DNA of 32,581 nt from Rhodospirillales bacterium (lineage in GTDB: Bacteria > Vulcanimicrobiota > Vulcanimicrobiia > Vulcanimicrobiales > Vulcanimicrobiaceae). Under the pieces are notes generated by a model that had not been told where the DNA came from, did not search any database, and saw only the letters and a list, made by a program, of their open reading frames with translations. A program made the position numbers and the translations under genes. This document shows, in pieces, positions 13,985 to 31,876 of the stretch. The stretch is taken from contig JANYGA010000188.1 of assembly GCA_025359485.1 (NCBI GenBank), positions 1 through 32,581 on the forward strand, given 5' to 3'. Position 1 is the first letter of the stretch. Each line of letters opens with the position of its first letter.

Positions 13985-14302
13985 TCATCGGACGTCGCGC
14001 ACGAGCGAGACGTACCCATCGAACGTGTCGACATCGTCGAGAAAACCAAGGGCACGTAGCACGTCGATGCGTTCGTCGCCCGCGGTAAACCGCGCGATCA
14101 CGACGGCGGCAAAGCGGCCGACCGCGATCGCGTTGAGCTCGCGCACGAGTGCCGCATACGACGCACGATCGCCTTCGAGCGCGCTGATGAGCAGTGCGGA
14201 CCCATCGACCTCGAAGGTCGCCGAACCACCCTCGGCGCGCACGGTATGCGAATCGCCCGCCGTGGCGACCTCATGGTCCGGAATAATGCGAGCCTTCGCC
14301 AT
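13985..14302 (-). CDS. Small hypothetical protein, start overlaps dnaB 3' end
   Basis: 105 aa, MAKARIIPDHEVATAGDSHTVRAEGGSATFEVDGSALLISALEGDRASYAALVRELNAIAVGRFAAVVIARF. Co-directional, 32-nt overlap with dnaB. Confidence 0.6.
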   Translation of the reverse strand: MAKARIIPDHEVATAGDSHTVRAEGGSATFEVDGSALLISALEGDRASYAALVRELNAIAVGRFAAVVIARFTAGDERIDVLRALGFLDDVDTFDGYVSLVRDVR

Positions 14303-16913
14303 AGGGCACGAAGAGCGTATGCTCTTTGAGGAAGCGTAATTTTACGGTCCCGGTCGGGCCGCTGCGGCTTTTTGCGATGATGAACTCGGTGAGATCGGGC
14401 TCCGGCGCGCTCTCGGGATTGTAATACGCGTCGCGGTAGAGGAACGTGACCATATCGGCCTCTTGCTCGATCGCGCCCGAATTATGCGTGAGCATATCGT
14501 CGACGACAAAATTATGGAGATCTCCGACGGTAAGATCGTAGACCATGTCTTCACCGCACGGCTCGATCCGCACGATCGGATCCCAAAGGACGTCCGAAAA
14601 AGCGAGCGCTTCGAGAATCGCGTCGTCGAGGCGCTCTGCGACGAGAGCACGCGTCGTGCGAGACATCGCCTCGCCTTGGTCGCGCCATCCGAGCTGAGCA
14701 TGAGAGAGACGCGCTTCGGCGCGCAACATGCGCACGTACGGATTGACGTTCGCGGGAATGCGATCGAACTGGGCCGCGTCGTTTAGCTTCTCACGAACGA
14801 TTTTCGCGATCGCATGCTCGTGTTTTTTGCCGAGAAAACCGATGCGATCCATGAATCGCGTGACCGATTCACGTTGCATGAGCGAAACCGTCCAAATCGC
14901 TTTCGTTTCGGTACGATATCCGTCAATGTTTCGCGTATCGCTCGAAACAATACCATTGATACCGAACCTTAGCAGAGCATGCTGGACGTCGCGCGCGAGA
15001 CGTTCGCTAATCGTGCTGAGTCGAACGGTTACCCGCGTACTTGTCGAGCCGCGCGTGAGGCTACCATCTGCGTGGAAAAGGCCACGAAGAAACGCCGCAA
15101 CCACATCATCGCTTTGCTCGAAAAGCGATTCCGGAATATGTTTTTCGTCGCCCGTCGATTTCCACACGCCGAGGCTGCGAAGCCACGTCGTTAAGGGGTT
15201 GCGCCCGGCACCACACATTCGTCCAGTCGTAAGAACAACTCGCGTTGCCTCCGTACCGGCATGTTCGGCTCGAACGTATGGCTCGAGCGAAAATTCGTCT
15301 CGTCCCAGCCGGACCGCGATATCGGCTTCCGCCTCCGTTGCCACGGTGATTGCCGGGCTGCCGCCGAAATGGCCATCGCCTGTCAACCATCCGAGCAGCA
15401 ACGCGCGGCCGATGGTAAAGCTCGGATCCTTGGTCGGCGCATTGGTCGTCGCGTATCCCCGCGGCACGGCAATCGCATCGCCTACGCCCAATTCTCGAAG
15501 CTCGACCCAGCGCGACAGCGTGCGGAATCGGTGGCCCGCGGTGGCGCGAATAGAGCGCCCGCTTTGCGTCTCCATTCGGTACACCTGTTGCGTCCCAACA
15601 GTCCAAGCGTCCGTGATCGGTCGTTTCACGAGCTTATACCGTTCATCGACGGCCCAGACATCGAAGCGCAGATTCTTTGCGACGATTTCGGCCATTGAGA
15701 AACGTGCACCCGAAGACGCGTTCGTTACGAGCGAATCGCCGACGAGGCAATCGCGCAAATCCGAAAGCATCGGTCGTTTATCGTTGCGCGACTCGACGCC
15801 GCGGTTGAGCTGAGCGAGTGCGAAGATCGGAATCTGCAAATCTTTCGCCGTCGCTTTGAGCGTACGGCAGATTTCCGAGAGTTCGTCGTTGCGATTTTGC
15901 GGACGCGACGACGTCGATGGGCGCACGAGTTGCAGGTAGTCGATGAAAACGGCGGCGAGCCCGTCGCCGGCTTGCAGACGCCGACAGCGGCTACGAATCT
16001 CGGTGACGGTGACCGTGCCCGAATCGTCGATGTAGATCGGCAACTGCGAGAGCGCGCTCATGCCGCTCGAGATTTTCTCCCATTCGGGATCGCGAATGTT
16101 GCCGCGCTTGAGATTCATCGAATTGATCCGCGACTCGGCGCAGAGCAGTCGCGTGACGAGTTCTTCGTTCGTCATTTCGAGGGAGAAGAACGCGACGGGC
16201 CGTTGTTCTTCTTTGGCGACGGCGGCCGCCATCGTGAGCGCCATCGACGTCTTTCCCATCGCCGGTCGCGCCGCGAGAATGACGAAATTTCCCGGCTGAA
16301 ACCCCGCCGTGTACTCATCGATATCTTTGAAGCCCGATGTGAGTCCCGTGCGATCGCCGCGATTGTGATACGCGCGATCGATCTGCTCGAAGGCGCCTTT
16401 GAGGAGCTTGTTGATCGGCGAGAATTCGGAACGATTCTGCTTGCGGCCGACATCGTAGACGATCTGTTCGCTGCGATCGAGCGCGCCTTCGACGTCTTCT
16501 TCGTTCTCGAAGCCGATCTTCGTGATCTCGGTACCGGCATGGATGAGCCCGCGTAACGACGATTTCTCGCGTACGATGTGCGCGTAGTATTCCGCGGAAG
16601 CCGCCGTCGGTACCGTGTCCATCAGCGAGTTGAGGTAGGGCAAGCCGCCGACGTTTTCGAGTAGCGCCTTGCGCCGCAACTCTTCGGCGAGTGTGATTTT
16701 ATCGAGCGGTTCGCCACGTTCGTAGAGCTGGACGAGCGCGAGAAAAATCGTCTCGTGAACGTGTGCGTAAAAATCCGGTGGCGAGAGGATCTCGCTCACG
16801 GCCGACATCATCTCGCGATCGACGAGGATCGACCCGATGACCGCCATCTCGGCTTCTAGATTGTTTGGTGGTATACGATCGACCTGACCGTACCCCGTCG
16901 CCGCGATCGCCAC
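14271..16913 (-). CDS. dnaB: Replicative DNA helicase DnaB, intein-containing precursor
   Basis: IPPNNLEAEMAVIGSILVD, ILAARPAMGKTSMALTMA, FFSLEMTNEELVTRLL, VFIDYLQLV, LSDLRD...SGAIEQEADMVTFLYRD, with an intervening intein. Confidence 0.96.
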   Translation of the reverse strand: MAIAATGYGQVDRIPPNNLEAEMAVIGSILVDREMMSAVSEILSPPDFYAHVHETIFLALVQLYERGEPLDKITLAEELRRKALLENVGGLPYLNSLMDTVPTAASAEYYAHIVREKSSLRGLIHAGTEITKIGFENEEDVEGALDRSEQIVYDVGRKQNRSEFSPINKLLKGAFEQIDRAYHNRGDRTGLTSGFKDIDEYTAGFQPGNFVILAARPAMGKTSMALTMAAAVAKEEQRPVAFFSLEMTNEELVTRLLCAESRINSMNLKRGNIRDPEWEKISSGMSALSQLPIYIDDSGTVTVTEIRSRCRRLQAGDGLAAVFIDYLQLVRPSTSSRPQNRNDELSEICRTLKATAKDLQIPIFALAQLNRGVESRNDKRPMLSDLRDCLVGDSLVTNASSGARFSMAEIVAKNLRFDVWAVDERYKLVKRPITDAWTVGTQQVYRMETQSGRSIRATAGHRFRTLSRWVELRELGVGDAIAVPRGYATTNAPTKDPSFTIGRALLLGWLTGDGHFGGSPAITVATEAEADIAVRLGRDEFSLEPYVRAEHAGTEATRVVLTTGRMCGAGRNPLTTWLRSLGVWKSTGDEKHIPESLFEQSDDVVAAFLRGLFHADGSLTRGSTSTRVTVRLSTISERLARDVQHALLRFGINGIVSSDTRNIDGYRTETKAIWTVSLMQRESVTRFMDRIGFLGKKHEHAIAKIVREKLNDAAQFDRIPANVNPYVRMLRAEARLSHAQLGWRDQGEAMSRTTRALVAERLDDAILEALAFSDVLWDPIVRIEPCGEDMVYDLTVGDLHNFVVDDMLTHNSGAIEQEADMVTFLYRDAYYNPESAPEPDLTEFIIAKSRSGPTGTVKLRFLKEHTLFVPYGEGSHYSGP
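14481..15749 (-). other. Intein (423 aa) with LAGLIDADG homing endonuclease domain inside DnaB
   Basis: Block A CLVGDSLVTN, block B RATAGH, dodecapeptide motifs LLLGWLTGDG and AAFLRGLFHADGS, block F VYDLTVGDLHNFVVDD, C-terminal HN followed by Ser+1. Junctions LRD|C...HN|SGAIEQEAD. Confidence 0.95.
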
Positions 16914-29602: not shown

Positions 29603-31291
29603 TTACCACGTGCGCATGCCCGGTGCGAGATAGTGCGCTTGCGATAGATACTCGTGCATCGGACCCGCGTACGCAACGATGGCGAGTGCGAGCGCAGCAC
29701 CCGCCCAACGGCCGAGGCCGTCGAACACGCGCGGTGTCGGCATCGCATCGGCATCGACTTCGGCAAATGCGAAGGGGATGGGTTCGAGCGCGCGTTCGTC
29801 TTGGAGACGCGTGCCGACGGCGACGATGACGAACATGACGATGCTGATGAAGAGCACGATGCCCCCGATTGCTGCCGCAACCATGTGTGGATGCCATGCA
29901 GCCGCGATCGCGGAGCCCGCATACGATACATCCGACGACCGGCGTGGCGATCCCAAGAGCCCGGCCCAGTGCATCGAGAGTGACATCAAACTCATGCCGA
30001 CGAAGAATGTATACATCTGCGCGAGTGCGAGTTTGGGCGCGAAGAGTTTGCGGCCGGTCAGCGTCGGGACGAGCTTATAGGCGGCGGCCATGAACGTGAG
30101 CGCGACGGGTCCGCCGACCGTGATATGAAAGTGGCCGACGATCCACATCGTGTTGTGAACGAGCACGTCCATGCTATACGAGGCGTTGACGATGCCGCCG
30201 AAGCCGCCGGGAATGAAGAGCAACATCCCAAGAGCGATACCGGTGAAGACCGGGTCTTTCCACGGGAGCCAACGCACGATATTGAGGAAGCCGCGTTTTC
30301 CGGCGCGTCGTGCCGCGATCTCGAATGTCGCAAAGAGCGCGAACGCCGTCATGAACGATGGGACCACGACGCCGTAGGTGAGCGCCATGTGGAGCCATTT
30401 CCACGTCGCGCTGATGCCGGGATCGAGGAACTGATGGTGCAGCCCGACGGGCGTCGAGAGCAAAAGGAGAAAGATAAACTAAAGGCGCGTCAGTGAGTCG
30501 CTAAAGACGCGGCCACCGAACGTCGTCGGCACGATCGTGTACCAGACGAGATAGGCACCCATGATCCAAAAGTACACGAGCGGGTGACCGAAATACCAGA
30601 ATAAGATGCGCGTGAGCTCGACGTCGATTCCCGATGTCCAACCGAGCGACCATGGGATCAAGAGCGCCATCTCCGCAACGACGCCGAGCGTCGCGATGAC
30701 CCACATGATCATCGTCGTCGCTCCGATAAACGCCGGGAGCGGAATGCGCTGAGCGGCATGGCGGCGCTTGAACCAAATCACGTTCTCGATAACTTCGGCT
30801 GCGACGACCCACGTGCCGAGTACGAGGAAGGTCGCGCCGAAGTAGAACCACGGTGAAGCTTTGAGCGGTGCGTAAAACGTGTAGAGCACGCTCGCATTTC
30901 CACCAAGGATCGACGTCGCCGCCATGATCGTGCCGAGCAGCATGACGGCATACCCGAACCAGCCGAGCTTGAGCGACCGCCCCGGTCGCACGATCGTTCG
31001 GTAGATCGCGAATTGAAAGAGCCCGACGATGAAGAACGTCGTAAAGACGAGCGCGAGTAAGACGCCGTGTGCCGTGAGCATACGATAGTAATCGAATTCC
31101 GGCGGCATCACGATGAAATTCGCGCGAGAGAACGTCTGTAGGAGACCGAAGAGCGACCCGAGTGCGAGCGCGAATGTCGCGGTGTAGATCTGCGCGAGAA
31201 CGAGCAGATTCTCGTTCGCGACGGTATAGCGATCCAAGAAGACCGGGTCCCGTTTCTGCACGTCGAGCGTTGGCGGATGCATCGTCGTCAT
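29603..31291 (-). pseudogene. ba3-type cytochrome c oxidase subunit I interrupted by an in-frame TAG
   Basis: Two collinear ORFs in the same frame. N-part MTTMHPPTLDVQKRDPVFLDRYTV...MLTAHGVLLALVFT...FWYFGHPLVYFWIMGAYLVWY...SDSLTRL, then TAG at 30479-30481, then FIFLLLLSTPVGLHHQFLDPG...HNTMWIVGHFHITVGGPVALTF. No frameshift. Whether it is truly a pseudogene is unresolved. Confidence 0.85.
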
Positions 31292-31755
31292 CGCACCACG
31301 ATGCTTGCGGCCATCGCCTGGTGTCCGCCGCCGCAATACTCGTTGCACAGCAAGAGATACGTGCCGGCCTTCGCAAACGTATGCGAGACCGTACTGACCC
31401 ATCCGGGTGAGACCATCGTATTGACTCCGGTTTCGGGAATACTAAAGCCATGAACCACATCGGTTGCGGTGACGAAGAACGTGACGCGCGCGCCCGCGGG
31501 AATCGTCAACGTTCGCGGCTCCCATGCAAAAATACGACCGACGTAATACGCTTCGTAGACGCCGGTTTTTATTTTTCGCAGCCCCGGATGATCGAAGGGC
31601 GCCGTCGAGGAGACCTTCGCGGGATCGATGCTTTCGACGTGACTCGGTGGAACGAACCCCTCGACCACGGCGGCCGTCGTAATCGTCACGAGAAAGATCG
31701 CGAGCATCGCGATCCCGAACGCGAGCCAAATTTTTTCGTAGCGGTGAACGTGCAC
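31288..31755 (-). CDS. Cytochrome c oxidase subunit II (CuA), ba3-type
   Basis: MHVHRYEKIWLAFGIAMLAIFLVTITTAAVVEGF...VVHGFSIPETGVN...LLLCNEYCGGGHQAMAASIVV. Complete CuA motif CxxxCxxxHxxM. GTG start. ATGA overlap with subunit I. Confidence 0.93.
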   Translation of the reverse strand: MHVHRYEKIWLAFGIAMLAIFLVTITTAAVVEGFVPPSHVESIDPAKVSSTAPFDHPGLRKIKTGVYEAYYVGRIFAWEPRTLTIPAGARVTFFVTATDVVHGFSIPETGVNTMVSPGWVSTVSHTFAKAGTYLLLCNEYCGGGHQAMAASIVVR

Positions 31756-31756
31756 G

Positions 31757-31876
31757 TTACCACCGCGCCGAGAGTAAGACGAACATCAGAAACCAGCCGA
31801 TGAAAATAAAGATTCCGAGCCCGGCGACGAAGGCGAGCGTCGCGGGTAAGGGCTCGTTAAACTGCGGTTCCGACAT
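31757..31876 (-). CDS. Small oxidase subunit (IIa-like), single TM
   Basis: MSEPQFNEPLPATLAFVAGLGIFIFIGWFLMFVLLSARW (39 aa) directly upstream of subunit II. Resembles the small ba3 subunit IIa in size and topology. Confidence 0.7.
   Translation of the reverse strand: MSEPQFNEPLPATLAFVAGLGIFIFIGWFLMFVLLSARW

Follow-up and report, generated by a model that had tools for sequence, protein, structure and literature searches.

A gene for subunit I of a ba3-type (B-family) heme-copper oxidase, in the draft genome of a soil-type bacterium of the Vulcanimicrobiota (Candidatus Eremiobacterota), is interrupted by a single in-frame TAG at codon 271. On balance we favor the view that this is an ordinary subunit I gene carrying one very recent nonsense substitution, found in this genome only. 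The genome comprises 2.95 Mb in 296 contigs and is given as 99.96% complete; the gene lies in a stretch of 32,581 nucleotides, referred to here as the window. Among named relatives, MAGs of Candidatus Eremiobacterota (Vulcanimicrobiota) stand nearest, and the best of them share ~67–73% identity with it in ba3 subunit I.

The interrupted gene and its operon

The subunit I gene spans 31291 to 29603 on the minus strand and comprises 563 codons, final TAA included. The TAG occupies positions 30479–30481 (minus strand), and the claim of the first-pass annotation, that it stands at codon 271 of a frame unbroken over 563 codons, proved exact to the codon. The sequence quoted there occurs once in the window, which contains no N letters. 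Both the reading frame and homology persist on either side of the stop: the 5' part (30482–31291, minus strand; 270 codons) extends to the loop before helix 7 and matches positions 3–244 of the COX1 profile (PF00115), and the 3' part (29603–30478, minus strand) runs from helix 7 to the normal TAA and matches positions 247–436. When read through, the protein aligns with subunit I of the Thermus thermophilus ba3 oxidase without a gap across the site, the TAG being aligned with A268 in the numbering in which H282 and H283 are the CuB ligands. Because the two halves match consecutive parts of COX1, and because the alignment is gap-free across the site, they are one interrupted gene and not two chance open reading frames.

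The copper and heme ligand motifs (GHP..Y, HH and HFH), as read from the sequence, are all present, and are placed as the first reading had them: GHPLVYFW 5' of the TAG, HHQF and HFH 3' of it. The PF00115 match, together with the fact that the nearest solved relatives are ba3 enzymes, assigns the gene to the B family; what it lacks of a member of that family is an uninterrupted reading frame. Upstream, the ATG of subunit I overlaps the TGA of the CuA subunit II gene (31288–31755, minus strand), which had been said to look intact and is so, with a match to PF00116. A small frame whose end lies at about 31758–31850 (minus strand), which ends ...FIFIGWFLMFVLLSARW and has no Pfam match, is by its position presumably the single-helix (IIa-like) subunit.

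Elsewhere in the window, positions 14271–16913 (minus strand) encode a replicative helicase DnaB with an intein at about residues 389–812, at the DLRD/SGAIEQ site; the insertion matches an intein N-terminal splicing model. A SNF2-type helicase on another contig of the source genome (L230:5540-9172, minus strand; G000:C144) carries an insertion with matches to LAGLIDADG and to intein-containing proteins, and this insertion is therefore probably a second intein.

Distribution of the stop among relatives

A TAG conserved in relatives had been put forward as the observation that would speak against a recent mutation and for recoding or splitting. The comparison was made and gave a negative result. 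Among 99 same-family genomes, 62 have a gene for ba3 subunit I, and only in the source genome does an in-frame stop fall inside the matched frame. At the site, 109 aligned loci (some genomes being counted twice) carry Ala (36), Val (34), Thr (33) or Ser (6), with no other stop there; all relatives have a sense codon. Among these residues only serine has a codon that is one substitution from TAG, and this serine codon is found in some relatives. A premature stop that is missing from the orthologs is what is expected of a nonsense pseudogene, and the absence of conservation at the site is not what is expected of recoding. The other Vulcanimicrobiota ba3 subunit I genes (up to 73% identity) have the same length and the same motifs as the interrupted gene but, unlike it, no in-frame stop inside the matched frame. 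TAGs in two relatives (G021 and G028) were considered as conserved recoding and rejected: they belong to 37 surplus residues that precede the true start, and vanish when the correct start is used. No genome of the same genus as the source was found, so the age of the change is bounded only by the genome's own terminal branch.

Three further loci deserve mention. In one relative (G004:C32, which is QHBJ01000003.1; L216:4366-5989) a frameshift near residue 421 disrupts the gene for ba3 subunit I, giving the family a second interrupted copy, due either to mutation or to assembly error. The contig CAJCIN010000042.1 (L045), titled Rhodospirillales, has an Eremiobacterota-type ba3 gene and is probably mislabelled; it is apparently the same as a contig that groups within the family of the source genome (G014:C42; 25,448 bases each). 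Finally, JAGGRA010000004.1 (L089), titled Pseudomonas sp. ISL-84, has a Bacillus-type ba3 subunit I with about 39% identity to the query, as have the loci of Neobacillus and Cytobacillus; contamination or mislabelling is possible.

The status of TAG in the source genome

Use of TAG was surveyed in a 690-kb sample, about 23% of the source genome, containing 558 likely coding segments. TAG terminates 174 of the 530 segments that have a stop, about a third, and RF1 is present in the genome; recoding would be expected to leave TAG rare or absent as a normal stop, or RF1 lost. Neither the 38 Rfam tRNA matches nor a genome-wide pattern scan yielded a tRNA with a CUA anticodon. The list of tRNAs is incomplete, there being none for Cys, Glu(UUC) or Gly(UCC) among the 38 matches despite the rated completeness of 99.96%, which reflects either a gap in the assembly or a miss in the search. 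CUA-like pattern hits in tRNAs on three contigs (C226, C109 and C18) were discarded, the ARAGORN anticodons being UCU (Arg), CUC (Glu) and GCU (Ser), respectively. No pyrrolysine ligase (PylS) was found in the source genome in a search in which one control genome scored above the cut-off, and no tRNA-Pyl-like pattern was found.

A scan of the same sample for coding segments that adjoin in frame returned about 58 pairs, of which ten were checked with Pfam and the rest by eye only. The ba3 subunit I gene was the only case found of a TAG or TAA interruption. One other in-frame stop was found, a TGA in the formate dehydrogenase alpha subunit (...VENQARI*HSST...; L184:7447-10677, G000:C156) at the usual selenocysteine site; the remaining pairs look like neighboring genes that share a frame. 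Since this TGA was picked up, and since the genome has the matching tRNA-Sec (G000:C180:6667-6756), the scan is able to detect real recoding.

Dispensability and age

In the source genome an aa3-type operon (on contig C265) and cbb3-type CcoN and CcoO genes (on contig C192) are present and intact; searches of this genome found neither a cytochrome bd oxidase nor a second copy of the ba3 gene. Among family genomes at least 90% complete, 20 of 55 have no ba3 match, which means that loss is common. Given the intact aa3-type and cbb3-type genes, the many relatives without ba3 and the frameshifted copy described above, the ba3 oxidase is evidently dispensable.

The interrupted gene itself bears no mark of decay. 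Compared with 53 relatives, none of 192 near-invariant columns is altered. The share of tree length that falls on the gene's own tip is, after the TAG relative to before it, 1.20, within the range of 0.47–1.68 observed in 42 sequences; the part after the stop thus evolves no faster than the part before. The lack of decay on either side means that the TAG is either very young or not real.

Explanations for the in-frame stop

Four explanations had been offered in the first-pass annotation, and two of these, a recent nonsense mutation and a sequencing or assembly error, survive. If the halves were products of a split gene, made separately and assembling into an oxidase, then the retention of all motifs across both halves would be accounted for, as would the position of the cut, close to the helix 6–7 loop. 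Nevertheless, the TAG aligns within the stretch that leads into transmembrane helix 7, and the sole in-frame start codon near it, a TTG six codons past the TAG (30461–30463, minus strand), stands behind a pyrimidine-rich stretch with no Shine-Dalgarno-like sequence upstream. The next in-frame starts, 31 codons on and later, fall past the HH copper ligands, and no relative is broken at this site; we consider a split gene most improbable. Decoding of the TAG, be it by a suppressor tRNA, pyrrolysine machinery or local readthrough, would explain why the half downstream is still conserved, but the frequency of TAG as a terminator, the presence of RF1, the failure to find a CUA tRNA, PylS or a tRNA-Pyl-like pattern, and the sense codon in all relatives make it very unlikely. 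A particular form of this idea, in which a species-specific suppressor, missed as an odd tRNA or through an assembly gap, reads the TAG as a small residue and thereby sets a low, regulated level of oxidase, we regard as scarcely credible.

The choice is then between a nonsense allele and a base-call or consensus error in the draft assembly (or a base from a minor strain that became the consensus), with the gene of the organism intact. Such an error is a substantial possibility, if the less probable of the two: the genome is a draft in 296 contigs; apart from the TAG neither side of the gene is damaged, which an error explains as well as a young mutation does; and spurious internal stops in bacterial assemblies are documented, arising from low-coverage or low-quality reads (PMC11017572). 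Against it, the frame is kept, so that a substitution and not an indel would be needed, and the assembly does not appear error-rich, the 690-kb sample having revealed no other TAG or TAA interruption. This last fact, together with the frequent loss of the gene, leads us slightly to favor a real null allele, and we infer that the TAG is present in the organism.

Were the nonsense substitution real, RF1 would end translation at codon 271 and leave a 270-residue fragment lacking the HH copper ligands and the HFH heme/copper ligands. Without these ligands, cells that carry the TAG allele should have no functional ba3 oxidase, and respiration would proceed via the intact aa3-type and cbb3-type oxidases.

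Comparison with known systems

The ba3 oxidase of the source genome should be annotated as interrupted, and neither as functional nor as recoded. If the base is real, it is a further instance of ba3 oxidases being lost patchily across the phylum; beyond annotation the significance is small. Our literature search found no interrupted ba3 gene. The change is an ordinary one, and neither outcome, nonsense mutation or assembly error, is novel. The T. thermophilus ba3 subunit I (PDB 1EHK, 2QPD, 1XME) belongs to the same family over query residues 73–599 (E 2e-110) and has Ala where the source gene has a nonsense codon. In showing one internal stop within an otherwise intact conserved gene, the source gene resembles the internal-stop pseudogenes, spurious or genuine, that have been described in bacterial assemblies (PMC11017572).
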